A stretch of DNA of 64,000 nucleotides from Heterotrichella gracilis (lineage: Eukaryota; Sar; Xanthophyceae; Tribonematales; Xanthonemataceae): positions 124,001 through 188,000 of the forward strand of contig JAULBX010008883.1 in the NCBI GenBank assembly GCA_032358255.1, written 5' to 3'. Positions 1-39,000 of this stretch are shown here, piece by piece (position 1 is the stretch's first letter; each line of letters starts with the position of its first letter). The translations under genes were made by a program, and so were the position numbers. Below the pieces are notes generated by a model. It did no database searches. It saw nothing but the letters and a program-made list of their open reading frames with translations, and was not told where the DNA came from.

Positions 1-204
1 GTTGCCTGAAAGACCCCACCAAATGCAGCAGCAGAACTGCATCGAAAGCAGCGCCATGCCCTTGCCGTGCGCCGGTGTAGGGTTCAGGGTTCAGCTAGGG
101 GGGGCAATTATTACCCAGTGTGAGGAAAGAAGTGCTTGGCCCCGTATGTGCAAGACTGACAGCTAATCTGGGCTGTATTGCTGGAATGCATGTAACCAAC
201 TATG

Positions 205-315
205 GGGACCCACCAGCCAATGCTGACTGTCCCGCTGCCGGTGTACCGTTTAATGTTTAGGGTTTAGGGTTCAGGATATAGGGACCCACCAGCCAAAGCT
301 GACTGTCCCGCTGCC
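205..315. repeat. direct repeat of an exon end and its splice donor flanking a TTTAGGG array
   Basis: Bases 281-315 hold the last bases of a beta-helix exon and its donor. Bases 205-239 repeat them with a single mismatch. Between the copies, 255-272 carry about two and a half units of the TTTAGGG telomere motif. Using the outer donor would shift the frame. Confidence 0.85.
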
Positions 316-972
316 TGTGAAGAAGGTCTCCAGCGGGTGCTCAGGCTGCGAGTCAAGTGACAGGGTCACGCCTGAGCCCAGCTTGATGACGGACCCGCTC
401 ACGCCGATGATGGGCTTGGACAGGGTGATGCTGCTGCCCACGTAGAAGGTACCTGCAAGTGGAAACAAGCAATTGTATTAAATTGGAAGAAGCACTACAA
501 AAAAAGATATTATAGGAGTAATTGCACTCAATTTGTAATTGAAGTGGAACGTTGGTTGTAGGTAGTTGCAAAGAGTCGCGAGGGAGTATAGATGCCAAAT
601 TGCACTGCAGTGGTATCATATACCTGCAACGTGCAAAGCCGTACATTCCCAAAGTGACTCATACACGCCGCTCCATTTGGAAGGCCCTACCCAAGGTCCT
701 CCTATTCCCGCCCTACCCAAGAATGTGCACTCATATTTGACACCTGTACTGTGCGGCGGCAAGTTCAACTCACCAGATGGCAGGTAGATGGCTGACAAGC
801 TGCTGTCAGAGTCCATGCTAGAGAACGCGCCGGAGTTGTCGGTTTTGCCGTCGCCACTGGCGCCATTGTTGGTGGCGTCGACGCTGCCGCAGCTCTGGGC
901 GTGCGAAGGTGCGGCTGCAGCTAGTAGCAGCAGTGCAAGCATGCCACCCACAGCAGCAGCGTGTGAGCGCAT
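290..972 (-). CDS. secreted right-handed beta-helix (pectate-lyase-like) protein, 5' part only
   Basis: Two exons can be read: 774-972 and 290-452, joined in phase 1 by GT-AG sites (donor CATCTG|GTGAGT, acceptor CTTGCAG|GTACC). The start ATG at 972 opens a typical signal peptide (Arg, then a Leu/Ala core ending SHAQS). The mature part begins CGSVDATNNGASGDGKTDN, the GDGxTDN signature at the start of Pectate_lyase_3-type beta-helices, followed by short beta-rungs (GTFYVGSSITL, GSGVTLSL, FTGSGTVSF). It resembles the plus-strand protein at 3823-7384 in order and length of rungs but is clearly diverged. The gene runs off the left edge, so the catalytic or binding region is not seen. It is probably secreted or lumenal and acts on, or is built into, wall or extracellular polysaccharide; the substrate is unknown. 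The donor of the second exon is duplicated 76 bases into the intron. Confidence 0.7.
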
Positions 973-3822
973 GGTGGAGGGTGTGAGGTCCGTGCCCAGG
1001 GGTCACCTGCGCAAGGGGAACCATAAGGGTTGAGGGCTGGGTGATGTGGTCTGACATGCGGGGTGGGTCAAAGTCACAGGGCAAGCGGCAACCATAGGGA
1101 TGGGTCAAACCGTGTGTGCACACCTCCCGCTTGGACCTAACCTAGACCCAAACCCTAGACCCTAAAATGTGCAACAGCCATGGCTGCTGGAATGCATGCC
1201 ACTCATACCTGAAGTGAGGTGGTGCAGATGGTGCTTCCAAACCTATGTACCCAGATCTTGCTCTTTTCCAATACAGCAAGTGTTCTTCTCCCGAAATTTG
1301 AGAGAACATGCCACTAGACGAGTAGACTTTGTGGCAACTCGGTATGCTCAACGGGTGTGCAGTTGACAAGAAACAGAACTTATACCGCTATACCTACGTG
1401 AATAAACGATGTGAAGGCCAAAAAAGACGCTTGCCCAATACATCACCATGGTTGGTGGGCAAATGTGCCATCAAGTACGACATAGCGGATCAAACCTCAT
1501 ACAGCGCAGATGCTGCCAGATATGCGAAGTAAGCCAAGTGCGTTGCAGTCACAGTGTGCTATGAAGCACCGTCCCTTTAAAACCCTTCTGGGCAACCCAA
1601 GATCCGCGGCAAGGATACACGAGAAAATACGATGCCACTGAGTGTAAGGTTGTATCACCCAACAGAGGTGCAGCCCGGCATACACGAGGGCGACTGTACT
1701 TGAGCAAACAGCAGTGAAATTTAGAGTGCTTGACAGGGTTGGAACGGTGGCCACCTCTTGCCAAGACAAAGCTTCCACCTGGCTGAGATGGTCACTTCCC
1801 GCATGCGTGCCAGATAGTCTAGCCATCGCGGGACAAGGGGACACCGATCGCCGTACTAGCAACACGAGCTTTGCAGGCTGATCTTAGTAGAACCCGCGGG
1901 TCACCAGCGTCCTCACCTTGAAGGAAAGATTTGGGTCCCACAGGAAGGGATTTGCCAGGTGCTGGATACCAGGTTGTTGTGCCTGCAACAGGCCAGCACA
2001 CACAGCAGCGTCTTCCTCGGCAGAGATCCACCCCAAGAGCTCAAAGCTTGGTGGGTTAGCGTCAGTACTTTGGGTCTCTTGTGTATGCCAGCACCAACAA
2101 ACTTCAAACAACACGTGGCACAGTGATGCAGATGGGATGGCGATTGCTCGGCTCGCCTCAACAACCAGCACCTCAGTCCTGTCAGTCTCAAACCCGGTTC
2201 TTCTCACACAAAGAAATACTGCACCCTAACGCTGGTTAACACTCTGGATACAGGCCAAGTCGTTGCCACAGGTGAGACAGCTATGCCTGCCAGCTGCAAC
2301 TTGGGCTGCCAGGGGTCACTCTCCCTTGCCCGCCGTTTGAAACCGTTTGAAGAAAGGACTCTGTTGCCCCTGCAGCAGAGACCCACCTCGAAGTGACATC
2401 CAAATGCAGATTGCGACGCTGGGCGTAATGTGTATCATGCGGTAATTTGGTCCGACCACCCTACATGATCACATTTACAACGACCCCTTTCCCAGCGTCT
2501 GACACGGCCAACCGGCGCGGTCCGCGGAGTACGAGCACTGTTATTACTCACTTTGCCACAGCTTGATCAACTACAAACTCAAACACAGTTGATCTCCTGT
2601 TTATTGCACGCATCTCTGTTGGAGCCGTGAAGCAGAGGTTGGTCTTGGGTTGGCGTTCCCGGTTCTAAGAACCACTGCGACTCATCTCGCCACATTTTGG
2701 CTAGCACTAGGCCAGTATATTAACCCGGCATCTCCGCCAGGCTTCTGAGCCCACATCTCATTCCCTTGGCCAAAGGTGCAAACCCCCAATTTAAACCTTC
2801 CTCACTTCCTACGCCACCCAGATCTGCTCCGCCTGTCCCCATATTGCCTGGCGCCTGCGTTGTGCGTCTGCTCACCAGCCCTGTTGGAAGCTTGGTATCC
2901 CACGTGCACCGGGAAGAGGCGTTGTGAAACCCCTGTTCGAAGGTGCGGCATCTCAAAACATAGATTCGGCGTCAGCTTCAACCCTTCGGCAATAGCCCAA
3001 GCGTTGTTTATGATCCTATTCCCTTTCACATAACTGAACCGTCCCACGCTTGCCCGCATCTGTGCGCTGTTTGGCCTGCATGCCTGTACTGGTGCTCACT
3101 CACACAGCCCTGTTTGCATGTGCACGTTGCTGGGGGTATGTGCATCGCTGGCAGTCGGTTGAGCAAACCCACGTCGCTTTTGTGTTCTCATATATGCCCG
3201 TCGCGCAACTGGTGTTGCCTTAATCTTGGCACCGTCTTACACCACAGCAAGGTATCCGCCAACAAGTATAAATGTGTGTGCGCACTGGGTGATTGTACTT
3301 GGTTCAGCCCACAACGCAAGTGATCCCTGGCGCTGATCCACTGCCCGCAGCTCCCAGTTACAAAATACGCGCAGTCGCGGTTGATGGTTGCTTGACTAGC
3401 GCGTGTTGTATGAGGTGGGAGAGGTGTTTCTGGGCGTGCATGACGTACTTCAAATCTAGCAACGTCACTCGCCCCTTAGCTGCGAAGCCTTCAATCCATT
3501 ATTCGTGGGGGGTTGCCAGCTGTTGCTCAGTCTAGTTGATGGCTGTGCTGTGGGTACCCTACACACAAGGCTTGGCCCAAGTGCACAATACCGCACACAC
3601 CCATATGGAGTACCCACACTTCGCTGGGTTCACCTTAGTGGCTCTTTTGAGCTGCTGCCCAAGTACCCTGCACAGCCTCTTCACAAGCCCGTCAACCACC
3701 ACCACCCTCACCATCCACCCACCTTGGCCACCACCACCCTTGGAAGTATCCAGCCTTACCCTAGCAATACCCTTCTCGCAGGTGCCCCGTTGCCCACAAG
3801 CTGACGCGCCACAGCAGCAACC
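973..3822. other. intergenic region between divergent beta-helix genes
   Basis: No coding exon could be supported on either strand; open frames here are short and show no family signature. The stretch should hold both promoters. A degenerate CCCTAAA-like run lies at about 1130-1166. The string GCTGGAATGCATG, also present near 178 and 5597, occurs at about 1186-1198. Confidence 0.5.
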
Positions 3823-6800
3823 ATGCTACAGCTACTGCAAAGCAAGCTGGGGCGCAGCCAAACTCTGGCTGCCCTGCTGCTTGCCCTAGTAGCCGCTGCA
3901 CACGCCGATGAGTTCTACTCCACCCTGGAGGCACAGAACAAGGCCCTGGCGGAACTCCAAGTGAGGGCCAACTGGCTTGATGATCCAGTGCTCAAGGAGC
4001 TGAGCAAGGAGGTAGGTGTCCCTGATCACTCTCTATCTAGTCGATCTGACAACCTACCCTGCTGGGCACCACCTTGAAGCACCTGCGCCTCATATACACA
4101 CACGCTTGTTCCTCATGTGATGCGGCATGTGGTGCTTGCCAGGACCGCTGAGACGCCGCCATCCAGCGTGTGAACTTCGGGGTGGTTATCTGCTTCACAT
4201 CCTTGCTGAACCTGTGCTTGCCCTATTCCTGTGCAGGACAACGTCACCAACCGGCGCCACCTGCTGGCCAGCTCCGCCACCCCCACCACCTACACCACAA
4301 ACCTCCAGGTGGCGCCCGACCACGTCCAGACCCCCACCGCCCACACCCACGACCGCAAGCTCCTACTGGCAGCTGACGTGGTCACCATGGTGTCGGCAGA
4401 CTTTGACTTCCAGGTGTGCAAAGCGGCAAAGTTCACACCAAGCTAGGCCTTTCCAGTGATCGCATTCTGTGGCCTCCGATGACCACAAGTGATGGAATGC
4501 CCCCCGGGCTATCCCTGCCCATCCACCTACCACCTGGCAGTGCCTAGTGCAACTTGCCGGTGCCAGCTGTACCCATTGCTAGGCCTGAACCCTATTGTAG
4601 CATCAGGGTTAAAATTGACCCTAACCGTGGCGCCCCACCTGCTGCAGCTGCCATACCCCAGCGAGCCCTCCACAGACGTCTCCTGCCCCACCTCTGTGAG
4701 CAAGTTTGGCGGCAAGGGCGACGGCTCAACGGACAACGCAGAAGCCCTGTCTGCCGCCTCGGGGTCGGCTGACGCGCTCATCTTCGCCCCCGGCAAGTAC
4801 CGCATAGGGTCGGATGTGTCGGTGGATTCCGTGGTGTACTCAGGGGAGGGTGTGGAGATCTATGTGGACTCTGGCGCCACCATCACCTTCACCAAGCCCC
4901 TGCACCACGGGTCAAATGGCAAGGCGCTGTTCACCGGTCCCGGGGATGTCAAGTTCAAGGTAGGGAACTTGAGACAAAACCCTGCACTGTTTTGCCTGGC
5001 CATGCGCCGCTGTGAGCTGCACCTCCATTGCACTGGATTGCACCAGGGCTGCTGCATACCCAGGCCTAGTACAACATCCTGTGAGTACTTCTTCCACCAT
5101 CCGCTGCCAACGCTAACCATGTGCCACCGCTGGTAGACCCTAAACCCTAACTTGCTACTGTACAGGGCGTGGACGAGGTCTCCCCCCACTGGTGGGGCGG
5201 CAGGCCCTACCCCTCCACCAAGTCCCTGCAGGCTGCCGCCGACAGCTGTATCGGCCCCTGCACCATCATGCTCACCACCGCATACCAGATCGACGACGAC
5301 CTCAAGCTCAGGCCAGGCAACTCCCTGGCGTCCGGCGCAACCAACAACGGTATGTGGTGTAGGGTGTAGGGTGTAGGGTGTAGGGTTTAGGTATGTGCAC
5401 ACATGCCCTTTCATCAACCACCAACGCCACCATTTGCATGTGCAGGGTTCCCGTAGCGAACCGCTTGCCCATGCCTGCCTGCCTGAACCTAAACCGTAAA
5501 CCGTAAACCCTAAACCTCTTGCACATACACCAGTGTCAGGATGAGCCCACTTGGCGCTGCATGTGCAAGGCTCATCCTGGCAACCTTTGCTCGGTGGCTG
5601 GAATGCATGGTAGCTAATAACCCCCTCCCCTGTGCAGTCATTTTCCAGGGCAAGGGCGGCACTGTGTACCTCACCCCAGGCGACTACCAGAACGCGCGCC
5701 TGGAGTTCCCAGCAATGAGCGGATTCTCCACAGCCATTGTGGTGCAAGGGGGGGTCAAGAACGCCGAGATCATGTGGTCCACCATCTACAACGCCGACAA
5801 GGCGCTGGTGTTTGACACCACGCAGGGCTCAGACAACCGCATCGATGACGTAAGCAACTGCTGCCATGCCACCTGCGCTGCACTCTGTTCAGGGCCTGCA
5901 TTCCTGTGCTTGCGCTGCTGCTATTCTGCATTGCCATCGGGGTGCAAACGCTGCTATGTCCTGGTTGCGTAGGTGCCCACATGTGAACTTGGGCACAGAC
6001 TGCACATGCGACCCTGAACAGAAACCCTAGATACCCTTGCTGCTGCTCACCTGTGTGCGCCTGTGGCTGTGCAGGTGACTGTGTCCCACTTTGGCGCCAC
6101 CACCGAGTCCAAGAGCTCCATCGTGTTCAACTCTGGCAGCTCGGGCGACTACTTCAAAAACATCTTCATCAAGGGCCAGTTCTTCAACCTGCCATCCTAC
6201 GCAGGCATCCTGTTCACAGGCACAGCAGCCACCTACGACTCGGTCACCATCTTTGTGCAGGCCATCGTGCCCAGCTTTGGGAAGAACCCAGACTTTGTGT
6301 GCATCAAGGTACGGGCAATACCCTAGCAAAGGGTTTAGGGTTCGGATCTAGGGTCTACCTACAGGCAGGTGTAGGCAGCAGCCTGGCTGTGCAAATGTGT
6401 GCAGGCGCTTGACTCAAATCATGCTTGGTAGAGATCACATCATTCTAACTATCATTTTCTCAACCCTCTTTGCCCGTTGTGACCTCCTTCTGCAGCCTGC
6501 ATTCTCAAAAACATTGTGTTATTGCCTGCTGACACCATCACCCTCCCTCGCCTGTGCAGAACGACGCCTCCGGCACCATCTACGGCGTCAAGTTCCGGCT
6601 GGAGACCTGGGTGGGCGACCTGTCCGCCAGCGCAAAGTACATCGAGGGCGACTTTGAGTCCTCCGGCATCTTCATCTTCAACCCCGTCAACATCCAGACT
6701 GTGGACCAGATTGATGTGCCCTATGGCGAGTACAACTTCATTAGCTGGGGTTACCTGGGCAATGCTGGCAACCCCAAGCAGGTGTCGCAGAGCAGGGGGA

Positions 6801-7384
6801 TCGGCAACTTTGAGGGGGGCAAGGCGGTGTATGACTCTCAGGTGAGGGGGATGTGGCATGGAGTGCCCGCATATGCAGCGCAGTCCATGCAGAACCTCTC
6901 ATTTATTGCCAGCATGTGTGCCACTGATTGTGGTGTCTCACTCAGCATGGTAGAACATCCAGGGCAGGAGGTGTCCTGCCCTCGTTTTCGCCTGCTCACG
7001 CAGGACATGCAGCGCATAAAATATATAAGAATTTAATCATTTAAATGTATTTAGATTATTATCTCACCGCCCCCCTTCCTGCCCCATCCCCAGGTGGTGT
7101 ACATCACCGTCCCCGTGGGCTCCTGGTCAGCGGGCGAGGAGCGGTCCTTCTACGTGTACCACTACCATGCGCCCTACCTCAAGAGCAAGGACGACGTGGA
7201 GCCCATCCCCCACGGCGGCAAGAACGAGGGCATTGTGTTTGTTGGCGGCAAGGCCACCGGGGATGGCTATGAGGTCAAGGTGACTTTTAAGAATGCCAGT
7301 GGGAGCACGGTCAGCCAGAAGGACGTGGTGTTTGGCCTGCAGATCGGCAACTATGGCAGGTTCAAGCCCAAGTCCCATCAGTAA
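3823..7384 (+). CDS. secreted right-handed beta-helix (pectate-lyase-like) protein
   Basis: Eight exons keep one frame: 3823-4011, 4237-4413, 4648-4959, 5166-5349, 5638-5849, 6075-6308, 6560-6841 and 7094-7384 (1881 nt, 626 residues). The first exon gives a short basic head, a Leu/Ala core (TLAALLLALVAAAHA) and a likely signal cleavage site. A roughly 110-residue linker precedes the Pectate_lyase_3-type start (KFGGKGDGSTDN, about residue 137). After that come repeating beta-rungs with many Gly, Asn and Ser turns (GGVKNAEIMW, SGSSGDYFKNIFIKG, GTAATYDSVTIFVQ, NDASGTIYGVKF), as in beta-helix proteins. The last exon is a beta-rich tail outside the helix. Known relatives include pectate lyases, exo-glucanases and structural wall proteins, and I cannot assign a substrate. 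The gene is head to head with its paralogue at the left edge. Introns carry TTTAGGG-type strings at 5137, 5357, 5486 and 6331. Confidence 0.8.
5137..5151. repeat. short intronic telomere-like array (CCCTAAA)
   Basis: About two CCCTAAA units lie 14 bases before the acceptor of the fourth exon of the beta-helix gene. Confidence 0.7.
5349..5397. repeat. telomere-like array between two copies of a splice donor
   Basis: The donor string GGTATGTG at 5349-5356 is followed by four GTGTAGGG/GTTTAGG-type units and then by a second GGTATGTG at 5390-5397. This is the shortest example of a duplicated splice site flanking a TTTAGGG-like array. Confidence 0.7.
5486..5517. repeat. intronic telomere-like array (CCTAAAC/CCGTAAA)
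   Basis: Four imperfect units of the CCCTAAA type sit in the same intron as the array at 5357, but in the opposite orientation. Confidence 0.7.
6331..6343. repeat. short intronic TTTAGGG run
   Basis: Just under two TTTAGGG units lie 22 bases after the donor of the sixth exon of the beta-helix gene, with a diverged unit following. Confidence 0.55.
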
Positions 7385-14152: not shown

Positions 14153-17100
14153 CTAGCTCCCCTCCTGCACCTCCGCCTCCCCCTTGCTCTTCCCCCCTTT
14201 GGGCGTCAGTCTAGTGCGCTTGTCGGTGGTGGAGATCATGCTGTACCCCTCCGCCTGCAGCTGCTGGATGAGGCGCGACTCCACCGCCTTGGCCATGCTC
14301 TTGCCAGCGGCGTGCTGGGGCAGGGGCAGGTACACCGCCTCCATGTTCACTCCGCCCTTCACCTTTCCGCGCTTGCGGTGGGTGTGCAAGCGCGCTGCGG
14401 TGGGGTAGGGGGTGGGGGGGGTGAGGCCATGGCGCAGGGTAAGGGCAGGGTGGTGTACACTTGGACAACTGCAAGAATGCCAGCAGTCCCGCATATCCCT
14501 GTATAGATGCATTTCTGCCATGATTTGGGCAAATGTGCGCATGCCGTGCGATCCAATGCATCTTACAAAGTAACAAGCTGGTAATTTTCATTGTCCCATA
14601 CATCTGGCCACTCCAGTGCCAGCATTGGCCAAAATCCACTGTGCAAAGATAGCAACTTGCGTGAGTCAGGTTCGATGCAGGCTATCAGCCCTATGGCCCC
14701 ATTACACACCTTTAATGTCATCCGACTCGCCACAGTAGAACCACCCATCAGCCCGCCGCACGATGTACACGCAGGAGTGGCCCACCGAGGATGGCGGGGG
14801 CTGCTGCTGCCGACGCACATACGTCACGCTCCCCGCATCAACATCCATGCCATTGGCCGTGACTTCCGATGAAGAGACCCCACCGCCAACGCCATTGGCG
14901 GTGGCAGCATCCTCTTCATCGTGCGTACCATTGCCGTTGCTGGTAGTTTCTCCACTGGCTAGGGTTGTAGGGTTTTGGCCATTGGAGTCCAGCTCCCGGA
15001 GCACATGTGCTGTCACTGACTGCAGCAACTCCGCTGCCTGGTCCAAGGTGTGGGAGGGCATGGGAGCCGATGATGATTCGAAGTCCTCATCAAGGGAGGA
15101 ATCACTGGCAGAAGTGGTGGGGGGGTCCCAGGGCGCTGGCCCGGGGCTGCGCGCTGCGGGGAGCGAGGGGTGGTGCAACAACTCCACTTCCTGAAGGGTG
15201 TGCAAGGGGAATTGTTAGCTCAAGTGCAAAGGGGATGCTCTCGGAATGGTCCTGCTGCGCGCATTTGCCGGTCAAAAGGAATGCGTCTCCTCTCTCAGCA
15301 AAGCACAAGCAATGCAGCATGCACTTTCACCTGTGTACACAGCAACAGTACGCAGTGGTGCAAGGAGAGTGGATCGGGTATGGTTGACAGATGGACCAAG
15401 CATGTGTACCAGACTCCTGGAACAGCAACACTAGACAGCTAGCGAGCCTCAGTGACATGAATGACAACACAGACAATTACAACACTGCCCTGTGAAACCC
15501 ACATGCCTGCCAACCGCAACTGACCAGATCTAATCAATCAAACCGATCCGCCACTGGCCAGATGTAAAACATCAGGACCGATCAGCCCACCCACGAATGT
15601 CGATCATGTGCATCGAGCGCTGCGCCCAAGCAGCCTGGGTGTCAATCGAGTATGCCACCCACCTTGTACAGCTGCTGTGCGCGCGCCAGGAACTCCGGTG
15701 ACAGCTGGCACTCCCTGGCCACCTGCAGCGCCAGGCTCTGTGTGCTGACACCTGGCACCATGTGCCACGTGGCGCGATGACACAGCTCGCCACTTGGCAA
15801 CGTCTCCTGCAACAAGGGGGAGTGGGGCACAGGGCTGGTTAGGCATGGCTATAGGCTGCAGGCTTGACACCATGCAGGGTTTTGTGTTTTCCTTGCTGCC
15901 ATGCATTGTCTTGGCTACCTCCTCTCCCTCAACCGACGCGTCTATTCAAGGACAGGCTACGCCTCCTCTATACTGCACCTCTGATTGGCCAAGGCCACAA
16001 CCATGGATACAATTACAATCACACAAGAAAGGCAGTTTAGCCAATCCATTTACTTTCATAGAGAATGCCCATCAGCCACCTGAGACCTCACCTCCACTGT
16101 GTCCATCTTCATGTACACCATCCTGGGCGTGTCCAGCTGCAGCTCAAGCAGGTGGTGCAGATGCGAATGCCAATGCAATGGGTAGTTCTCCTCATGGCCT
16201 TGTTTAAAAAAAGTCAGCACGACCTGAGTCAGCACAAACTGTCCATGGCTGACCCCAAAGCAGATGCGCATTGATCCCCAGCCACAGCCCACCCCAGGGG
16301 CACGGTACACCCCCTCACCTCCACTGTGTCCATCTTCATGTACACCATGCTGGGCGTGTGCAGCTGCAGCTCAAGCAGGTGGTGCAGGTGCGAGGCAAAC
16401 ACGCCCCTGCACCCGATGCCATCCAGCGCCTCGAGCATGGCACCCGCTATTGCTGCCCCTGCCTTGACCTCTGTGCCCTTGCCCAGCTCGTCCACCAGCA
16501 CCAGGGACTGGGAGGTGGCCTCCTGGAGGACGTACCTGTAGAAGAGGGGGAGGGGGGGGGTGGGGGGGTGAGCGGTGGGGGGTGCTTATGGGTGCGCAAG
16601 CGGTGGGTAGGTGTGGGGTGGTGCACATAGGACCTCAACAAATGGCTCCCTGAAATGTGGATATGATGTTCTCCAGAGAGCGTACATTTTGGTGTAAACA
16701 GTTCCAGTCCGTAGCCTGCTTCCCTACCTCATCTCCTGCATCTCCATGGCAAACGAGCTCTTGCCCTCAAGGGGGGCGTCAGACGAGAAGTTGCGCAGCA
16801 TGAAGGCGTCGATGTAGGGGATGCGGGCGGACCTGGGCGGGGCTGAGGGTGTCAGGCATGCAACTAAATTTGGAATTTAGGTATGGGTGACTGTACAGCA
16901 TGCATGCATTGACCCGCATTCCACCCATACATCACCGCATGGTGCGGGTTTGCTCAAGAGAGTATCAGAAAAACTTGCAAGGGCATACCAAGAAAACGCC
17001 AACATGAATGCAGGATGCGGGCTTCCATGGGGGAGCGTCAAAGGGCGAATGCTGGTACACCAAGAAGACGCCAAACATACCATATACACACAAAACACAA

Positions 17101-20100
17101 GATCATTGACATACCTGTATGACCCTGAGCCCCTCCAGCACTCTTTTCCTCCCTTGTACCCCAGTCCCCCAACCCCACCTTGCCAGCACAAACCCTGAAC
17201 CCTGTACCCCAGCCCCACCTTGCCGGCACAAACAGGCCACACGCCGCCAGCAGGCAGGACGCACAGAGTGTGCGCAGCACCGTGGACTTGCCCGCCATGT
17301 TTGGCCCCGTGAGCAGAATGATGGAGGAGAGGTCCACCGAGTTCTTGACAGTTGAGGGCGCGTGCGCGTCCAGCCAGAAAGGCCACATGTCCTCTATGTG
17401 GATGGGCGCATTGGCGTGGGGGGAGTCATACTGCGCACATGCGACTATCGGGTTGGGAATGCTTGCCAGGGTCAGTTGCTGGGTCAGTTGACAGGATAGG
17501 CGCAGGGAACAAACCCGGGACGTATTACATTACATTACATTACATTACATTACATTACATTACATTACATTACATGCGAGACCCCAAAGGGATGCATCCG
17601 GGACGTACAACGACGTATATTTCGTATCAATGGTCCTTCAGTTAAAAATACGGTAGGGCGCCTCACCTGCAGCGTGGGCAGGGTCCAACTCCTCCTGCGC
17701 GCCTCCTGCGTGTGGCGCTCCAGTGTAGCGGCGATGAGGGCAAGCCACGCGGCGCCAACCAGAGAAGGCATGTCCTCCTGCACGCGTGATCGGCACATTC
17801 CGTGGTGTCAGGGCCGAGCATTGCAGCTTCAAAAGTGAGACGCTGGCTCACTTGGGTGTGCCTCTGTGCGGGTGTGCCTGTCTGCCTACCTACAGCCTCA
17901 GGGTTTTGCAACTGGGCCTCTAGGCTTCACCCACCTGCAGCCTCCCCGCCAGCTCCTGCAGCTCCCGCCGCACCCCGTCGCTTGCCTCCAGGCATCCCTG
18001 TCGGTAGTCATCCATGGCCATCTCCATGCCCTTGGTGGCGTAGCACTCGGGGATGGTCTTGCCAACGCGGTCCCGGGGATGGGCCAGCTGGGAGAAGTCA
18101 TTGGTGGGGGCTGGTGCGGGGCGCACTGGGGATGCAAGGGGGAAGGGGGGGTGGGGGGATGGTCTGGTGCATGCGGGTGAGGAGGTCGATGAGTGGGTGA
18201 ATGCAGGGGGGAAATGCTGCCATGCGGGGGAGGCATGAGTATACATGAGATTTCCAATATAATGATTGATAAAACCACACTTGGAATATTGACAAGATAT
18301 ATGTAGCACACCCCGCAGATATCACTATACCATGCGTACTGCATATTATCAATTGCATGCTACATCGCCAAAAGTCGTGCCCTGGCTAAGGGTGGTGGGA
18401 TTGGGCTTGCCAAGGGCGTTGGCTCGCACCCTGTGCGCCCCTGGGTAACTTATTTTAGGGTTTAGGGTTTAGACATGTGCCAAAGGGTTTGCCCCGCACC
18501 CTGTGCGCCCTTGGGTATCTTGATCCACAGCGCGTTGTTGTTCCTGTCCCGCAGGATGTACGGCCTGTTGGCCTTGCTGCCTGGATTGAAGCTGTACTGC
18601 TCATGTGCCAGCTGCAGGCCCAGCAGGGTCTCCTCCTTCACAGCCCTGGCTGCATTTGCCACCTGGCATCGAGGACGGGAGAGAGTGTGGATGCAGTGTG
18701 TGAGAGGGCAATGAAGGCGGGGGAACTCGAGGGGGTATGGATCCATGAAGTGAGAGGGGAAGATGAACGCCGAACCTCCGCCTTTTTCCAAGGTTTTGCT
18801 TAGTGTCTGCCTTGTTGCAACTCCAGTGAGTCAAGGGATTAAGGGTGGGTACAGACTCCAAAGAGCAGGAGGACAATGACACATCATTGTGATGTTTTCA
18901 GGTCCTCCTGATAAGGTGCAGCTGCTTTTAGCCAAATCTAGGCGCTGATGGTGTGGGTCATGCAGCAGGGCCCAGCTGGGAATGCAATAACACAGCTCCT
19001 GATTCCCCCTCAACATTTGTCACACTCCATTCCTCACCTGGTCCAGATAGGATGCGATGCGCACATCCTGCACCTTGTCCTTGAAATCCTCGTTGGCCTT
19101 GAAATACTCACTGAACATCTCGTCCACCTTCTTACTGTTGCCTGCTGCAGCAATGTCATCCTCCTCTGCACCAAAAGGATAACGCCAATTAGGGTTTGCC
19201 CACGGTGTCAGGCACCTTCCTTACCCTAATTGAGGGTCTTTACTACACACCAGATTAGGGTGTTGTACCTGGTACAATTTGTACCTTTCCTGCCCCCTAA
19301 TTTTAGGCGCCTGACATGCAATTTGGACCTTGACCTTGAGCAGGCAGCAGTGTGCAGGTTACCTGGTAAATACGTGCATGTACAAAGCGCAGGCAATGGG
19401 GTTTTAACCTAATTAGGTTGTTTCCACGTAGTGGCACCTGTGGCCTCACCTGTGGACGAGTCCTCCTCCACATCCAATGAGAAGCGCAGCTCATCGGGGC
19501 TGTGGATGACGTCGCAGATGGCCTCAAGCGCCGACCTGCACCATGAGCAAGCCACGCGGCGTGAACATGATGCACACTTGCCCATGGACGCCGTCTGTCG
19601 ACCGCAAATCGCATCATACATTCTGAGAAAACAATGAATACATGGTTTGTGACCCCAATACGACTGCTTCCGCAGCGCAATCAACCAGAGCCCTCCCATC
19701 TGCCACGTGTCCCTCCATCCCCTACAACCCTGCCCAAAACCCTACCTGCACCCCTCCACCAGCTGCTCCCTGGGCAGCGCCACCCCTGTCTCCAGCTCCA
19801 CCGCAGGCAGGATGGCATCGGCCAGAGGCACCAGCGCCGGGTGGGAGGCGGTGTGCAGCACAGCCGCCGCCAGCGAGTGCAGCTCCCTGAAGAATGTGTC
19901 GTTGGTCTGCTTGGAGTCTATTTTGAGGATGAGGTTGGCCAGGGAGGTGGTGGGGAAGTCGGGCAGGGCCTCGCGCGTCTCTGCAAGGGATTCGGCAAGG
20001 GTTTCAGACAAGGTTCTGAAGAAGGGTCTGGGGTATGTGCCGCGTGTATACTCAGTGACGTGCTTTGTCCACTGGCGCTGCGTGGGATGTGTGTGAAGTT

Positions 20101-23100
20101 AGTGCAAGCCATTGACCGGCAACAGGACCATATAAAATGCACAGTCGTGAACTGAGGCCAGCGCTACATCCACCATAGTTGCGCGTGCTATAATCCCAAT
20201 CACCGTGGTACCCTGAGACAACCCCCCCCCACACCCCATGCACCCACCGAGCAGCAGGCTGCATGCCAGGTGCATGGACAGCGCGACACGTGGCGGCGGG
20301 GGGAACAGCAGCAGCTTGCGCAGGTAGCGCCGGCACACAAGGGGCACATTCTCGGCGGGTATCAGGAAATCCAGCAGATTTGGCATCCCCCGCGTTTTGT
20401 GGATCCCCAGCTGACTGGCGGTGCTCTGGAAGGTGGGCTTGGGGCGGTCGGAGGCGCTGCTCATAACCTGGGTAAGGGGGATGTAAGTTGGGGTGTGAAG
20501 GGAGGGAGGGGGGGAGATTGAGGAGACAAAGAGGGAGCAATGCATGCGATATCAGTATTTGAATTGGTAATTTCCATCCGTTGCGTGCAGATTAAACTTT
20601 AGCTCTTGCGTCCTCCAGGACCTCAGTTATGCACAGTAGCTGTTCCATGCCTCCCTGGCGTGAATCCCACATTTCTCGACTGTAATTGTAATTGTGATTG
20701 TAATTGTGATTGTAACTGTAACTAAATCGTGATTTTTAATTATATTGTGATTGGGAATGGGATTGAATTGTCATTGTACTTGTACTTGCACCTACCTCCC
20801 TGAATGCCACCCCCTCCAGCCCCAGCTCCCGCCTCACGTGGTCAAGCAGGCCATGCACACGATCGGGGTCATCGTAGCGCCGCACCACACCAACCTGCAA
20901 CACCCATGTCACACACACACATGAGCGCACACTGGAAATAATGGCGTGCGTCACTTATCACCCACTGAAGCCCTAAACCCTAAACAGATGGCATGCGGAC
21001 ACGCGGGAACCAAAGGGTATGCGTCACGTATCACACCTCCACTCAATCAGCATGCATGTGCCACATGGCCTCGAACCACACGAACCACATGCTTGCATGG
21101 GCAACCTCCTCTTGACCAGGAAGACTTGATGACAGGATGTGTTGGGGTGCAGGGTTTAGGGTTGTTGTTAGGGTTTAGGGCCTCATTTTGGACCTAAACA
21201 GGGTGCACATGCAACTCAACAATGGCCTCGCTGATGCAGGTGCTTTGTAGGGTTTAGGGTTGTTGTTAGGGTTTAGGACCTCACCTGTGACCTGAACAGC
21301 GCACTCATGCGTCTCTCCCACTCCGCCTCTACACTGGCCTCGCTGATGCGGGTGGCAGGGGGGGTGAGGGAGCGGTGCAGCCAAAGGGGAGGGACCAAGC
21401 CACCTGCGCATAGGTAGGGTGTCCTTTCTTTATTCCTTTGTCCACATTGTACCACCACCAACACTCGCAATAGCACCACGTCCACCCACTCTCGTGCAGC
21501 CGACCAGCCAACACTCCATCAGCAGCAGCACCGCCGCCACCACCACTGCCATCACCACCACCCACATATAGCCTGCTGACACTGCCCACCCCCATCTGAC
21601 CTATCCAAACCCAGACCTGCATGCACCACACGCAGCCCACCAACACTCCATTCCCGCCATTATCCCACCCCCACCTTCATGCAGGCGCGCCGACACCGCA
21701 TCCTCCGTGAGCCCTTCCGTGACGCAGCATGTGCGCATCTCCACGTTCACCTCCATCACCACGTACCCACCCACGCTGGAGGCGATGCCCAGGATGGGGG
21801 GGGTGCTGTGCAGCTGCTCCTCCTGGGGTGGGGGGTTGTGTGGGGTTTTTTGACAAGGGGGGGTAAACAACATCATACAGGATGGGGGGGGTGCTGTGCA
21901 GCTGTTCCTCCTGGGGTGGGGGGTGGGGTTGTCTGAAGGGCGCTTTCTTCTCAAGGAGGGGTAAACAATGTCAAACATGATGGGGGGGGTGCTGTGCAGC
22001 TGCTCCTCCTGGGGTGAGGAGGGGGAGGAGGGGGCGTTTTCACAAGGGGGGGTAAACAATGTCATGTATGATGGGGAGGTGGGGTTGGGCGTGGCTGAAA
22101 GGTGCAGGATCCATAGGTCCAAATTGCCACATTATGGAGGCCCATGTGCAAGGCGTATTTACTGATATTGCGGCTGTATTCCCGCAATGCATGAAACCAG
22201 GTACATCCATTGTCATATGATCCCTTGTCATATGATCCCTGGTCATATGATCCCTGGTCATATGATCCCTGCAGCACAGCCACAGCCACAGTCCCCATCA
22301 CAGCCACAGCCACATCCACCACCACAGCCACATCCGGCGCACATCCGGACACCCCACATCCACCACCCCACCTGTTCGCTGTCCACCAGTCCATACATGT
22401 AGTGCGGGGATGCCGGCGTGACCACCCCCGACACGAACCGCTGCTTCTGCTTGGTGCGCATGCCGTAGTTGTAGGGGTCGGGGTTCTCCTCGCACACAAC
22501 CTGGGGGGGGTGGGGGTGGGGGTGGGGGGTGGGGGGTGAAAGGGTAGGGGAAGAGGTGTGCGGGGGGTGATGAAGGGGGGTGGGCATAGAAGGGCAGGCC
22601 GCTGTTCAGGGTGCACGGTGTGCAACATGCAGGGGCGCGGTGCGCACGGGTGCGGGGGGGTACGCTGATATGCCAATTTATACTACATCCGGTGGTGTGT
22701 GTGCCCACCAGTGTGCTTGCTCTTAAATCTTAATGCATACATTTATATATAATAATAATAAAATTTTAAATAAAAATAATATAATTTTGCAGATGCATTA
22801 AATTAGGAATTAAAAGCTGCAGGTGGCCACCACTTGTGGGAGTTATGGGGTGCCGCATCTGGGGGGAATCAGCGCCCCATACCACCAGGGCGCAAAGGCA
22901 CAAACCTTAACCCTGCACCCTGACACTGATGCACCCCCAAGGTGCAGAACGTGAGGTCTAGTTGGCCATGTGGCTTGTGAATTGCGATGCATGTGGCTCA
23001 GTCAGTTCATGGTGGGCAACCTCCTCGAGGACATGGCCACGCAAGGGGTGCGACATGACTGCAACCCTAGCCTAGGGTTGTTGGGCGCACCACCGACAGC

Positions 23101-26064: not shown

Positions 26065-26096
<32 letters not shown>

Positions 26097-29084
26097 TGCC
26101 TCACAAGATGACCAACACCAGCCCCAGCCCCGACCTGAGGACCCGTTGCCTAGCACCAGCAGCAGCAGTAGCATCCAGAACCCCGTCAGCAGTAGCCAGA
26201 ACCCCAGCAGCAGCAGCGGTAGCATCCAGGACCCCAGCAGCAGCAGCAGCAGCAGCAGCAGTAGCCAAGGCCCCATCAGCAGTACCCAGGGCCCCACCAG
26301 CAGCAGCAGTAGCCAGGGCCCAATCAACCGAAGGGTGCGCCTTGACGGCAGCGACTCGCGGCAGGAGGGCGGCGGCAGCGCGGCGGGTGCCACGCCGGTC
26401 ACGGAGCCCCTTGCCGGTGAGGGTGTTGCGGGGGCACAGGAGCTGCTCAAGGCACTCAATTCGAGTCAGGTGGGTGGCAATTTGGTTGGTCACGTACATG
26501 CACCCCCCGCCATATAGCCAGGTTTGTTGGCAGCCCTCCGTTGGTGGTTGTTAGGTGGGCTGGGTGGATGTCCTGCACCTCACTGGCTGGGCACATGTAG
26601 CTGCATATGCCCAACATGACTAGGCACCATTGTACATGATGGGAGCAAGATTGCATTGTACAACGCCGCTTTCCAGTCTGCTGGCGACATCCCCCACTCC
26701 CGCTGCCCTCCCATCCCAGGCCTCCTCCCTGTCCTCCCCTTTCCTCCTCCCCCTCATGCCCCTTGCGCACGCCAAGGTGCCTGGCGAGGCCATCACCCTG
26801 CAGCTGTTTGAGCCTCGCTACCGCACGCTGTTCAAGGTGGTGAAGCAGGTGCAGGGACACAGGTGGGTGGGGGGTGCAGGGACTAGGGTAGGTGGGTAGG
26901 TGCAGGGTAGCTGGGTGGGTGCAGGGACACAGGTGGGTGGTGGGTGCAGGGACTAGGAGCCGCAGCCTGTTGTGACTGCGTGACTCACCCATGTGTGTGT
27001 ATGTGACCCATGTGTGAGTCCCATCACACAAAGCTGGTCACCAGTCGGTTCACATGCGGTGCCATTTAGTTCCAGTTTAGGGGGTAGGGTTTAGGGGCCA
27101 AGGTTTAGGGTATGTTTTTTTCCAGGTTTGGTGTGGTGCTGTCTGACCGTAAACCCTAACCTTAATCCCTAAACCTCCTGCAGGTTTGGCGTGGTGCTGT
27201 CCGACTCCAGCCAGAGGCTGATGGAGAGCGTGGGCTGCATCTGCGACATGCGCCAGTATGCAGCACTGCCGGAGAGGTGGGCACAACCCTAGCAAACCCT
27301 AGGCAGGGCGTACATCCTTGTGAACACAAACATCCACTTTCATGATTGTGCAATGGCTGGCATGCTACTAGCAGGCTACACTTCGCCGCTTCTGATTTGA
27401 TCGAATGCCAAGGATCAATATGGTGCGAGCCAACCATTATGACCCAACCCCTGAACCCTAACTTCACAACTCCTCTATTCCACGCGTGCAAGTTGGACCC
27501 TACAATGCCCTTGATGCACCAGGACTGAGCTTGACGGTGGCTTCACAGGCGGCGAGTGGTGGTGGGTGCAGCTGCCTCTGGTCGCTTCCTAGTCACCCGC
27601 ATCATACACACCACCCCCTTCGTGACCGCCCTTGTGGAGCCCTATGGGGATTTGGCGCCTGCTGACATGGCAGAGGGCATGCGAGTGGCCATGCTAGAGG
27701 CCGGCGTGTGGCAGGCGCTGCAGGACGTGCACGTGCTGGCAAGCAAGCTATATGGCCACCTGGGAGACTTAGGTAATGAGGAGGGGTGGGGTGGGGTAGA
27801 TTAACGTGCAACGGACTCCGCCGCTTTTATCGTGCCAAGCTGTATGGCCTGGGGGCAGCTAGGTAGTGAAGAAGGGTGGGGTTAGGATGGGCAGTGCAGT
27901 GGGACGCCGCTGCCTGCTGCTGCGACGAAGCCGGGCGAAACATCACAAGTTTGTGATGTTTCATCCACAAATGCCTGCAGGAATTGATGGGGTTTGCTCC
28001 AATTGTTTTATGCGCATATCAGTAACATGACTATTCAGCAATACTGTTAGCTAGCACACTGGGAACTTTGTATTGCACCAACCCCAGGCGGCCCAGAATC
28101 ATTTGCATCTGGAAAGCAATCCATTGCAGCCAGGGCGCATATGGACGTGGCATTGCCGATAAGCACTGCGTCATGCAAGCTCATGCCGTGCATGCATGTC
28201 ACTGCACTGCACTTTCCAAACTGACCTGGCTGCCCATCCATTTGACTCAGGAGACGAGGTGTACAGTCACGAGATCAGGCGCTGGTGCCCCGACCCCTTG
28301 CTGCGGGCCGCCACCCCCGCGATCCCCCCCCAGGACCCAAGCATCCTGGATATCATGCAGAAAGCGGGGCTGATGCAGGGCCATGCGAATCCTGCCACGG
28401 CACAGCAGCGTATCCAGGTCTTCCCGCCGCCGCGCCATTGGCCGCAGTCAGGGGGCGGTGCTGATGAAGAGGCGATGCGCAGGGAGCGGTTTTCGTTTGC
28501 TGTGGCTGCTGCGCTGGAGCTGGATCAGGAGGTGCTGCAGGAGTTGCTGTACATGCGGGACACAGGTGCGACGCGGGCCATGTCACATGTTACAGTGTAC
28601 AGCGCGGGCCATGTCACATGTTACAGTGTACAGCGCGGGCCATGTCACATGTTACAGTGTACAGCCATGTACAGCCATGTACAGCCATGTACAGCCATGC
28701 GGGCCATGCGGGCCATGCGAGCCATGTACAGCGGGCCATGTCACATGTTACAGTGTACAGCGCGCTTACGGTCAGGGTTAGGGTTTAGACTGCATGACCT
28801 TGAGGAACCGGCCTTGGCCTTGCATGCTGCCGGTGAGTCACATGGCAGGGGCATGTAGCGCACAGCATGGTCAGGTATGAGCGTGCCACACATATGTTTG
28901 TCTATGCAGTATGTACGTGTGCGAAAGCCAAACCCTGCACCCCAAGCCGTAACCCTACCCTACGTGTATGACCGCGCAACATGTTGCCGCAGGTGCGCGT
29001 CTACAGCGGCTACAAGGGCTCCTCTACGAGGGTCGGGGCTACCTGGCAGCGCGCAGCACGCTCAAGGACATGTTTGCAGCATGA
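25870..29084 (+). CDS. LON substrate-binding-domain protein
   Basis: Six exons (25870-26469, 26720-26862, 27184-27276, 27549-27772, 28251-28565, 28993-29084) give 488 residues in one frame. The first about 180 residues are a basic head, possibly a transit peptide, followed by long Ser tracts coded by CAG/AGC runs. From about residue 215 the LON N-terminal (PUA-like) domain is clear: LQLFEPRYRTLFKVV, RFGVVLSDS, GCICDMRQYAAL, GRFLVTRIIHTTPFVTALVEPYGD, then a helical part. No AAA or protease domain follows, so it is a stand-alone LON-domain protein as found in plant plastids and in cereblon-like proteins. Its role is probably substrate or ligand binding in proteostasis, by inference. An alternative start further upstream cannot be excluded. 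Introns 1, 2 and 5 carry duplicated borders or minisatellites. Confidence 0.8.
26066..26094 (+). repeat. coding AGC (poly-Ser) microsatellite
   Basis: About nine AGC codons within the first LON exon, with further AGC-rich tracts up to about 26320. They encode Ser-rich low-complexity sequence. Confidence 0.9.
26848..26958. repeat. duplicated LON exon end and donor
   Basis: The string GTGCAGGGACACAGGTGGG, which contains the end and donor of the second LON exon, recurs about 70 bases downstream, with GGGACTAGGGTAGGTGGGTAG between. Confidence 0.8.
27075..27207. repeat. duplicated LON acceptor and exon start flanking telomere-like arrays
   Basis: The acceptor and first bases of LON exon 3 (27181-27207) are preceded by a copy at 27123-27149 with three mismatches. 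CCCTAAA-type units (27149-27176) lie between the copies, and TTTAGGG-type units (27075-27112) lie before them. Use of the outer acceptor would meet a stop formed by the array itself. Confidence 0.85.
27937..27962. repeat. perfect 12-base hairpin
   Basis: GAAACATCACAA, a two-base spacer, and its exact reverse complement, within LON intron 4. Confidence 0.85.
28566..28770. repeat. nested minisatellite in LON intron 5
   Basis: Units of about 31 bases built on GCGGGCCATGTCACATGTT followed by ACAGTGTACAGC occur four times. Shorter CATGTACAGC and GCGGGCCAT subunits are repeated between the third and fourth. A TTAGGGTTTAG string follows at about 28777. Confidence 0.95.
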
Positions 29085-32288: not shown

Positions 32289-33031
32289 ACATGGTGCCAC
32301 TGGTGGAAACTTTCAGGGTTGGGCGCGTGATCGTCATGAGTCACCATCCCTGGGAGGGGCTGTAGCCAGGAAGAGAGGAAAATGGCTGGGGTAGTGGGGT
32401 GATACAAAGAGGGACAGGTGCATGGAACCATCGAACCTTCGCCCATGAAATAACTGGCGCAGCATTTAAGCGAAGGGGTGCCCATGCAAGGGAAATGAAC
32501 AGTAATGGTGAGACGCCAATGGTCCAGGACCTACCATATTAACGTATCAGCTGTGTATGCAAAAGGCCATGGAGCAGCATTGAAACATGCGACAATGGAC
32601 CATGGCAGGACAAGGGATTGTACAGAAGACCTTCTTTTTCATTTTTTTACCTTGAATTTTGTTGCTGCAGCAGTGACCAACACTGCCCAGGCACTACAGT
32701 ACAGTCCTTGCAGCTTAATGCTGTAACACTTGACCTTCCAATCAGATACACTTGATACTTCATGGGTCTTATGGGCAAAAGAAGTGCAAAACGTATGATG
32801 TGAATTTGTGCCCGACACCACCGTTGTCAATCTGTAGTGCTGTCACCACTTCCACACCCATCACACAACTGCATAATCTGAACCTGGCACCAAAACTACC
32901 CCGTGGCCTCTCCCTCCCCTCCCTGCATTCTTAGTACTACTGGCTACTAGTGCTACTAGCCCCAGCCAGCGCACTTGTCCCCCACCGCATTCTGTTAATA
33001 TTCACCACCTGCCACCTCCCTCTCCACACTC
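32289..33031. other. intergenic region between convergent thioesterase and ViaA-like genes
   Basis: Two 3' flanks meet here. No exon or clear repeat is visible. Confidence 0.5.
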
Positions 33032-36000: not shown

Positions 36001-39000
36001 ATTTTTTACTTATTTTTATTACAAAGGTGAGGCCAAGCCCACCTAATCCATCATCGCTGTGCACATGGATGGTGACGTGCGTGGAAAGACAGGGGATTCA
36101 GTCTCGTGGGACGACTCGGTACACGCCATGTGGCACGGGGCAGGCCAAACCCCGTGGTATCCCCCACGTATGGGTGAAAACCCTAGACAGGACTACAGGG
36201 TATTCTGAAGACATGCACGCCGCAGGATACCAGTCCCTGCTTGCTCTGGCACATACATCCTCCTAGCTTCAGTTGTACAAAGAGTAGGCCACAAGTAAGA
36301 TGCAGATGATGGCCAATTAATGTTCTCTCATGCGCACCATCAATGTCCCCAAATGCCTTGGCCGCCTCGTCCAGGCCCTCCATAGCCAGCCCCCACTCCT
36401 CCTTAAACTCCTCGATCAGCTGGTCAGAGATAGAGGGCTTGCTCTTCTTGCTGCTGCGCGACTCCTGCCTGCAGGGAATGGGGCAAAGGGGTGGTGGTGA
36501 GGGGAGTGATCATGGGAATGGGGAGGCGGTTTTTGGGGCAAGGGCGGGGTTGCTACACCAAAGCGGTGGGTCGCAGCTATCTGTTTAGGGTTTGGGACAT
36601 AATAGTACTAACGGTGGCACTAATCACGTGGCGACAAGGTGGTGAAATACATAGCATAATATATAGTATGTAGTTAGGTGGTGAAATACATAGTAATCCT
36701 GCATATGCACACCCTCGTGCCCCCCTAAGGCCGATGGCCAGCAATGTGAAGTGTGCACTCCCTGATCATACCAGGGTAGGCAGCTATCAGTGATAGACTC
36801 ACAGAACCCTGACCTAGGGTCCAGCCATCCTTCCCTACCTCTGCTCTCCCTGCTCCCCGCTTTTCCCCCCCTCCTTCGACTCCAGCGCCACCTGTATCTC
36901 CCCCTGGGACCCGCCACCCCCTGGCTGACCACTGCCGCTCTCGTCCGAGCCCTGCCCTGTCTCCGCAGCATCCATGTCCTGCAGGCATAGGAGGACGATG
37001 CACACTCAATGGTGTTTTATATCTCTGATGTTAAAGATCGCTGGTATAGCACATAAAATGTGGCAGTACAGATGGGACAGGCCTCGTTTTCAACTAGAAC
37101 AGGGGCAGTTTGCACACCTGGCAAGCAACACCACCATCACCATGTGTGTTACACACACCCCACCCCCACCCACCTCTGCCGCCTCACTCCCGCCCCCCGC
37201 GCCCTCCCCGTCCCCCCCTCCCTCCTGCTCCCTCCCCTGCTGCCCCTCCTGCTGCTGCCCCCCCTGGCTAGGCTGCTTCTGCTGTGCCTCATCTGCCTGC
37301 TTAGCCAGCTCCGCCTCAAACTTGTGCACCATCTGCAGGCAAGGAGGGGGTGTTAGTTGGACGCTTAATGGGTGCTTGCGTGGGGAGGGAAGGGGTGTGC
37401 ACCGTCTGCAGGCCAGGGTGTGTTTCACTTCTAGTGGTCCATGTTTGCGTGCGTCATGCAGACACAGGAATGGGGGGCATTACTACGGTGGATCAATTAT
37501 CTGCTAATTGCACACAATCAAGAAAGCCAGATCTGCAATCAGTCTTGCACAAGCTTGCGCCACCCAGCCCTGTCCTGACATTGGGGGACATTAGTCGGCT
37601 TTAAAAAGGAATAGGGGCGATGGTGACTACAGGACTGGTCAGCATGCTGGCGAGTGGCCAGAGGGGTTCATCTAGATCCTCAGACAGTTGCCCAGAATGG
37701 GTCTTGAGACTTTGGACATTCATGGCTTGAGATTTAGAGCTTACCTCCACCATGCACTGCATCAACGTAGCTTACGGTAGTTTTTTACTTCTACTTCATA
37801 GATTTCACTGTTCAGGGTTTAGGGTTTACCTCCACCATCGACTGCAGCAGCGAGGCCAGCAGCTTGGGGTATCTGCGGCAGAACCGCGGCATCTCCAGGT
37901 CGCGCAGGGCCTTGCTGAAACCAGACCTGGCAGTGAGACCACAAGCGCGTCAGCGATAGGCAGTTGGAACCGGGTGCGGTGCTTGCTGTTGGTTCACAGC
38001 CATGGAGCTGAAGGGATTTCAATGGGGTGGCAGCAGTGTGGGGGTGGCAAAGACTGCTGAAACAATCAAGCTTGAGCCATGTGAGTGGATGCAGATCCGG
38101 CCCAGGATCACATTGCAGCACTCCCTACAACAGTGCAGAGCATGTGCCCTGCTGCAATCACCCAGTCCCCACTTGCAGCAGCGCAAATTGCAAAAGCGTA
38201 GCTGCTGAACAGGCTACACTGCTCCAAATGCATATAATGAACCAACCACCTAATGCCTCAGCGCACCCAACACCTCCCCGTTGCACTGGCTCCACCACTA
38301 CACACACGCCCACCGCCGCCCAAACCCCCACCCAAACCTGAACAGCCTCTCCAGCCCCCACCCACACAACTCCCCCGCCACCCATCACCCCCGCCCTCAC
38401 CTGAATGGCTCCTGCGGCCACGTCACCGCCTTTGCATCAGGCAGATAGCCCTTGGCCAGCACGCTCTGCCACTGGGACAGCGCCTGTGCGCGCGTTGCCA
38501 GGTCACCCGCACCCTGGGTCCCTGGGAGCTCCACCAGTGCTTGCAGCAGGGACTCATCAAGGAGGAACTGGCGGCCAGAGGCGCTTGCCTTGAAGGCCTC
38601 CAATTGGGGGGCTTGGAGGGGGGTGGGGGGTGGGGGGGGCCTGGAGGGGTGTGAGGTGGGGTTTGCGGGGAGTGGGGAGGGGAGTGGGTGCGACGTTTCA
38701 TGAGAATGGGGAACATACTAACTTCTGTTTTATTTGTTCACAGGTACTGCAAGTGGGCTGGCGGCAACATCCGCCTGTTGCAACACCATAAGGAGAGGTG
38801 GGTGGTTTAACTTACGGTTGGAACGTGAAGGGGTTGATGCTCATCGCAGGGGGCAGCTGCCCGTTTCCGTTAGCGCTCTCGTTGTCCCCCTGAGCAGACA
38901 CCCACAGCCGACTGACCCTCTCCCCCCTCCTTCTGTGCCGTGGCTCTGGTAACCTCCATACCCTACCCCCTGCTGTCCCACTGCGTATACATTGCTGGGT

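Follow-up and report, generated by a model that had tools for sequence, protein, structure and literature searches.

In a 64,000-nt stretch of the draft genome of Heterotrichella gracilis (68.5 Mb in 903 contigs), exon edges with their splice sites are repeated inside the neighbouring introns, at several sites with a short array of the telomere-type repeat TTTAGGG between the two copies. The whole stretch, positions 124001–188000 of contig JAULBX010008883.1, is called the window here. A first-pass annotation had drawn attention to the repeated edges, and these were borne out in the window and far beyond it. Judging from the sequence of the copies and of the filler between them, we consider it probable that the structures are left by duplicating repair of the staggered-break type, with filler made by telomerase. 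The data suggest that exon-edge copying with a telomeric spacer lengthens introns, and in one case it appears to have created an intron.

TTTAGGG is the organism's own telomere repeat, since contigs C526 and C140 begin and contig C173 ends with long arrays of it. Exact (TTTAGGG)2 was matched 5629 times in the genome, compared with 5 matches for the reversed pattern, and exact (TTTAGGG)3 834 times, compared with 0; by subtraction, there are roughly 4800 separate (TTTAGGG)2 arrays. In the window, allowing at most one mismatch, (TTTAGGG)2 had 10 matches versus 0 in 100 shuffles. Flanking repeats were scored in 3-kb or 0.9-kb stretches around three-unit sites at 101 distinct loci, plus the window, with an array counted when it held two or more exact units and a flanking direct repeat called at a score of at least 40. 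After 3 of 137 arrays with short flanks were dropped, 65 of the 134 usable arrays had a direct repeat across the array, compared with 0.23% of shuffled pairings, 1/134 in inverted orientation and 47/685 random positions in the same loci and window (Fisher p = 6e-29). Another 40 two-unit sites, drawn anew in the order of listing but passing over three-unit sites and some close neighbours, gave direct repeats at 9, inverted repeats at 0 and 0.13% in shuffled pairings (Fisher p = 0.002 versus the random positions). The enrichment of flanking repeats expected in the first-pass annotation is therefore present across the genome.

The sites in the window are as follows.

201..243, minus strand: intronic copy of an exon end with its 5′ splice border, 40/43 identical to 277–319 (border by eye).
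248..283, plus strand: TTTAGGG array between the copies at 201–243 and 277–319, its end overlapping the second copy by a few bases.
277..319, minus strand: second copy, presumed true exon end (40/43 alignment; open frame by eye).
5356..5391, plus strand: GTGTAGG/TTTAGG array just inside an intron, from a tandem-repeat scan (TRF).
16086..16166, minus strand: exon-end copy from a MutS-like gene, with 5′ splice border, 78/81 identical to 16313–16393.
16313..16393, minus strand: second copy of the same MutS-like exon end, with 146 nt of non-telomeric filler between the copies.
18408..18451, minus strand: intronic exon-end copy, 37/44 identical to 18478–18521.
18454..18472, plus strand: TTTAGGG array between the copies at 18408–18451 and 18478–18521.
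18478..18521, minus strand: presumed true exon end of a minus-strand gene, with the 5′ splice site GTGCGGGG (frame by eye).
20971..20985, minus strand: array with a weak flanking pair, 20920–20969 and 20992–21046 (39/56, score 42, 70%).
21148..21310, no strand assigned: array and exon piece duplicated jointly, 21148–21212 and 21246–21310 (54/65 identical).
27123..27147, plus strand: copy of an exon start with its CAG 3′ splice site, inside the intron, 23/25 identical to 27181–27205.
27148..27180, minus strand: degenerate CCCTAAA array between the exon-start copies (12/14 of two units).
27181..27205, plus strand: presumed true exon start (23/25 alignment to 27123–27147).
37733..37767, minus strand: intronic exon-end copy, 29/35 identical to 37818–37852.
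37768..37817, plus strand: filler of 50 nt, with telomere-like sequence confined to roughly the last 8 nt.
37818..37852, minus strand: presumed true exon end with a GTAAAC 5′ splice site (29/35 alignment; frame by eye).
55984..56001, plus strand: array with no detectable flanking duplication (score 27).

Arrays had been described as lying exactly between two copies at five of these sites. This was so at 18408–18520 and 27123–27207 and, with a slight overlap, at 205–315. It did not hold at 37744–37853, where the array (37810–37828) sits only at the right-hand end and, of the 50 nt separating the aligned copies, about 42 do not resemble telomere repeat; 5349–5397 is a weak site, with a tandem unit that is mostly GTGTAGG and a flanking repeat of only about 8 nt (by eye). 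The joint duplication of array and exon piece noted at 21153–21345 was recovered, and the copies, given as 85–97% alike, measured 83–93% at the sites named in that annotation. The MutS-like pair is 96% alike, its region (16086–16393) occurs once in the genome by genome-wide search, and the exon matches Pfam MutS_V (PF00488, 6.1e-9). A Pfam search with a short stretch at the exon start 27181–27205 gave no match.

Copies were measured at 48 loci, 8 of 56 having been excluded because the copies were not adjacent to the array. Identity ranged from 68 to 100% (median 86%) and copy length from 24 to 147 nt. Both copies touch the array with 0–2 nt on either side at L013, L027, L031, L032, L043, L052, L064, L072, L098 and L155. 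The copies are identical at L052 (40/40) and L155 (56/56), and judged by this identity the two duplications are recent. The L155 array is the only one in its 901 bases and already holds non-canonical units; since it lies between identical copies, array and duplication look like one event, and imperfect arrays need not be old. Over 139 loci, 98 direct close-repeat pairs were found, compared with 1 inverted pair and 0 in Markov-shuffled sequence.

These features can be accommodated as follows. A break with long staggered ends, mostly about 20–90 nt apart, would open across an exon–intron border; telomerase would extend one 3′ end by a few TTTAGGG units, not always perfect ones; the overhangs would then both be filled in and the ends joined. 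The product would be an exon edge with its splice site, an array, and the same edge with its splice site again. The exon-side splice site would stay in use, and since the coding sequence is then preserved by the exon-side copy, everything else, array and second copy alike, would turn into intron. Ladders of at least three copies would result from further rounds and from tandem amplification at a later stage, and probably grow by later unequal exchange; where the duplicated exonic segment contains AG|GT, the insert itself would be spliceable and an intron would be gained. Copies that abut the array in direct orientation only, variable copy length, the presence of both array strands and the shared youth of copies and array point to staggered-break repair in which telomeric repeats were synthesised onto a 3′ end. 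This reading was already offered in the first-pass annotation; the duplicate–array–duplicate anatomy fits it better than it fits a mobile element, and the part played by telomerase we infer from the filler sequence.

Alternatively, local tandem duplication or slippage could have come first, with intronic telomere-like runs stalling replication through G-quadruplexes and duplicating exon edge and array together, as in a minisatellite. Ladders of at least three copies at 9 of the 48 loci (e.g., L084 and L061) and the joint duplication at 21148–21310 in the window agree with such an origin. However, at L027 and L155, which are young and have two copies each, the sole array of the fetched stretch lies between the copies, L052 has no array next to the outer side of its copies, and the L155 array is already imperfect between identical copies; slippage as the initial event is thus regarded as unlikely.

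Duplications of this kind are not confined to arrays. At 24 loci taken at round, arbitrary coordinates (21,624 bases), 13 direct close-repeat pairs were found, compared with 0 inverted pairs and 0 in Markov-shuffled sequence. On inspection by eye, a splice-like border falls inside 7 of the 13 and beside the copy in one more; the few without any sign of an exon are those in L179 and L186 and one in L181. At L178 (78–308), in what by eye is a kinase-like gene, the duplication (91% identity) takes in an entire short exon along with its two splice sites. Extrapolation from these 13 pairs in 21.6 kb gives about 41,000 close duplications in the genome (22,000–70,000). Filler at the arbitrary loci was 27.2% telomere-like (of 997 nt; 7-mers with at most one mismatch), compared with 7.7% outside the pairs. 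The first-pass annotation had taken the arrays as the core feature; the simplest unification is that they are the clearest and best-preserved, partly decayed filler of a broader, genome-wide copying of exon edges into introns, with filler that is not telomeric having either decayed or come from another source. Roughly half of the arrays are without a duplication.

Fourteen non-telomeric fillers were compared across the fetched loci and none matched another locus. Eight matched only themselves, and the other 6 had a further partial match within their own locus, for which reason these 6 may be minisatellite-like. A repeat family as the source of filler was rejected on this lack of cross-locus matches and because the one region searched genome-wide is single-copy. 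Another possibility is that the break is repaired as proposed above, the filler being captured telomeric or other DNA or the product of an error-prone end-joining polymerase. Non-telomeric fillers do exist, and there is little register match at the junctions. The telomere-like excess in filler at arbitrary loci nevertheless argues against this source, as do four window pairs with gaps of 26–50 nt that hold telomeric sequence and the clustering of exact runs at about 3–4 units, a figure biased by site choice; we hold it to be quite unlikely. The G-strand 3′ ends of the arrays stop at the three T positions in 85/137 and at the next two positions in 11, which is weak evidence for the repair reading because the way in which sites were picked biases the array phases. 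Separately, a 27-nt direct repeat with 100% identity and 81 nt of AT-rich sequence between the copies was noted at L038 (713–847); it resembles a micro-exon of 21 nt together with its splice sites.

The association between arrays and exon borders suspected in the first-pass annotation holds genome-wide in counts of splice motifs near arrays. These pattern counts need no gene models; they are counts of matches in which one array may score more than once, and p-values are therefore optimistic. GGTGAG followed within 0–15 nt by a two-unit array was found 117 times with the G strand in sense and 107 times with the C strand in sense, compared with 42 and 13, respectively, for GGTGAG within 15 nt pointing away from the array. 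Because array variants that mimic GGTGAG inflate the G-strand counts, the C-strand values (107 versus 13) give the clean contrast. At 16–45 nt the C-strand count was 110 over 30 positions, compared with 107 over the first 16, and the frequency of C-strand arrays thus declines away from the 5′ splice site. For 3′ splice sites the contrast was weaker, a C-strand array followed by TGCAGG within 25 nt occurring 310 times and the opposite order 143 times. Telomerase priming on GTGAG was rejected as the cause of the border link, as arrays of both strands are about equally frequent beside 5′ splice sites (117/107).

Strong 5′ motifs facing the array at 2–12 nt numbered 13 over 129 array edges where the site had a duplication versus 1 over 134 edges where it had none; at 12–22 nt the counts were 5 and 6, respectively, and for motifs pointing the other way at 12–22 nt 8 and 0. 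A strong 5′ splice motif lies inside the copy at 20 of the 48 loci, and by eye a 5′ or 3′ border is present in about three quarters of them. The copied piece is mostly exonic and, at strong 5′ splice sites, ends a median of 8–10 nt inside the intron; as scripted, 16 of the 20 strong 5′ cases end 2–17 nt into the intron, with an exon part of 6–124 nt. Such ends, and the splice-like borders seen by eye in the pairs at arbitrary loci, would also be expected if a reverse transcriptase copied a piece of pre-mRNA ending just inside the intron into a break, telomeric repeats being added next. The copies, however, lie in cis, in direct orientation and beside their source, as fill-in of a break predicts with no RNA involved, and RNA templating appears very unlikely.

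Several of these borders were placed in genes. L039 is a dihydroxy-acid dehydratase gene, the joined exons of which match PF00920 across the junction (1.7e-45). Its exon ends in VMEDLHK and is followed by GTGCGT, a CCCTAAA array and a repeat (70/77) of the exon end and its splice site; a second, decayed array and a remnant of a third copy (by eye) precede the next exon, which begins VGGTPAVL. L018 contains a duplicated 3′ border of a CAF1-family gene (PF04857, 4.8e-17) and L002 a duplicated 3′ border of a KH gene (KH_1, 1.7e-8). In the Pfam search of seven proteins, two had no match and one only a sub-threshold match. Intron gain as a general rule was rejected, as L018, L034 and L039 on reading look like existing introns that were extended.

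When adjacent copies were collapsed, long open frames appeared in part of the loci, L079 being unclear on reading. In a stricter scan for intron gain, 12 loci had a candidate and only L112 (C59:45140–46040) was coding-positive on both sides, with scores of 0.48 and 0.24 in the joined frame. A 74-codon frame is interrupted there by one 190-nt gap bounded by GTAAAA and CCCGCAG and composed, in order, of 11 nt of exon copy, 32 of array, 43 of copy, 24 of array, 43 of copy, 24 of array and 13 of copy. All 190 nt are array or exon copy, with no trace of other intron sequence. The duplicated segment contains CGCAG|GT, which supplies both donor and acceptor, and removal of the gap restores the 74-aa frame. 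The L112 intron was probably gained by exon-edge copying with telomeric arrays. Tandem duplication of an exon segment containing AGGT is a known route to intron gain, and L112 alone resembles it in that one segment gives both splice sites and the frame is restored; it differs in having telomeric arrays between the copies and several rounds of duplication. Upstream of the frame, at about 165–300 of L112, a segment beginning GGCAAGAAACTGCTGCGCC is duplicated around a short non-telomeric filler (by eye).

Several results weigh against repair with telomerase-made filler or narrow it. No duplication reached the threshold at 69/134 arrays and 31/40 two-unit arrays. Among 34 hand-listed close pairs (48 pairs less 7 at loci counted twice and 7 that are coding repeats or minisatellites in the window), only 11 had telomeric filler of 11/14 or better (controls 7%), and telomerase therefore cannot be the sole filler source. 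At most 2 bases are in register with the array start at 27 of 28 sites, and none at 19; made with no ancestral site, this is a soft test, and the 28th site, L061, is an artefact of a second array. A paralogue search, made for L102 only, returned no second copy of the gene and hence no empty site. A homologue search for the L112 protein found none at its sensitivity, so that the frame is one predicted from the sequence and its protein is putative.

In addition, part of the border association is certainly survival bias. This was modelled with uniform insertions, loss of those internal to exons, the requirement of an intact splice site and the observed duplicate lengths. With an intron length of 240 nt, taken from one window gene, the model gives 29% border-spanning and 71% intron-internal sites, with a mean intron share of 0.56 in 5′-border copies; with 100-nt introns 59% are border-spanning. 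In the data, the intron held the smaller part of the copy in 16 of the 20 strong 5′ cases as scripted (p = 0.001 versus the model) and in 18 of 20 (p = 3e-5) after correction by eye of L084 and L101, where an extra unit within the copy had misled the script. As modelled, simple survival thus predicts too few border sites and the wrong break position. Exon copies would also stay recognisable for longer through constraint on one copy, an effect estimated as less than twofold. Since the survival model falls short in both amount and position, transcription- or splicing-linked breakage is a live option for the border preference. A stronger proposal can be made only tentatively and is, on balance, doubtful: that a border-directed process, acting via transcription or splicing, keeps duplicating exon edges into introns with spacers made by telomerase and, in place of survival-filtered random breakage, is a leading cause of the building, lengthening and occasional creation of introns in this lineage, splice sites being multiplied along the way.

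The first-pass annotation had named a mobile, self-spreading intron element as the rival to repair, and this found no support. Thousands of arrays, many at splice borders, with duplications at the insertion point, do recall introners, which are sequence families occurring in green algae among others, with target duplications of 3–9 bp, and in which, as here, splice sites can be provided by the duplication that arises on insertion (PMC9860276, as far as the parts considered go). Yet there is no common element sequence here: when the flanks of 137 arrays were compared, non-telomeric sequence was common to no more than 4 pairs of loci, each time within one retrotransposon-tail-like stretch, and none of the 14 non-telomeric fillers matched another fetched locus. 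The duplications, moreover, are long and of variable length, and 5′ splice sites have arrays of either strand beside them with about equal frequency, so that a mobile element is highly improbable. An assembly artefact, conceivable in a draft of 903 contigs, deserves next to no credence, given the divergence of the copies (up to about 30%), the retained frames and splice-site statistics that hold genome-wide.

Staggered-break repair with telomeric filler has partial parallels elsewhere, which are compared here with the parts of each source that were consulted. In mammals, interstitial telomeric insertions arise at double-strand-break repair, with target duplications in 6/130 rodent and 4/25 primate cases (PMC2246262). 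The arrays described here are likewise short, consist of the organism's own telomere repeat, as in the definition of interstitial telomeric sequences, and lie at unrelated places, with telomerase inferred and some targets duplicated. They differ from the mammalian insertions in that 65/134 lie between direct repeats, many with a splice site, and in a lower register match at the array start than reported there; the link to splice borders was not met in the consulted parts of that account (PMC2246262). New introns in Daphnia are ascribed to staggered-break repair, with exon-end repeats of 4–12 bp (PMC4202315). They share with ours an insert flanked by a direct exon-end repeat, internal repeats from repeated events and intron growth, whereas the copies here are mostly 20–90 nt and often have telomeric filler ("telomer" does not occur in the consulted text of PMC4202315). 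A proposal for the spread of telo boxes in land plants is that telomerase acted on breaks within transcribed DNA; the boxes are of about one unit and most enriched in 5′ untranslated regions, and flanking exon-edge duplication is not described in the portion considered (PMC3022908). Direct repeats of 4–30 bp near intron borders in general were reported in a 2025 survey (PMC11782384, likewise in part). Telomerase mutants, for their part, have been described (PMC6549138). No report of telomeric arrays together with exon-edge copies in introns was found among open-licence PMC papers, judged by title and the opening of the abstract.

The source of intron sequence is an old question, and in few genomes is the mutational step behind it directly legible. 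In this one, duplication, telomeric spacer and splice site can be seen side by side in many recent scars. If the repair reading is true, ordinary gene architecture would owe much to telomerase, and intron growth and gain could be watched in progress in strains of the organism.

Three minor observations were made. A shared stretch ending in or near TGCTGGAATGCATG occurs in the window at 116–202, 1185–1198 and 5596–5609, in L001 at 1540–1581, in L003 at 2167–2180, in L063 at 306–377 (inverted), in L085 at 514–616 and in L092 at 126–139 (minus strand), in places beside arrays. (TAAC)n follows it in L085 and EWRKLV-like codons lie upstream in L001; we take it to be probably the 3′ tail of a retrotransposon of the long interspersed nuclear element type. 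The array at the end of contig C173 carries TTCAGGG-type variants on its inner side, and C140, C526 and C173 reach chromosome ends. The closest named protein match of one window gene was from Trebouxia, with 46% identity over 70% of the query.

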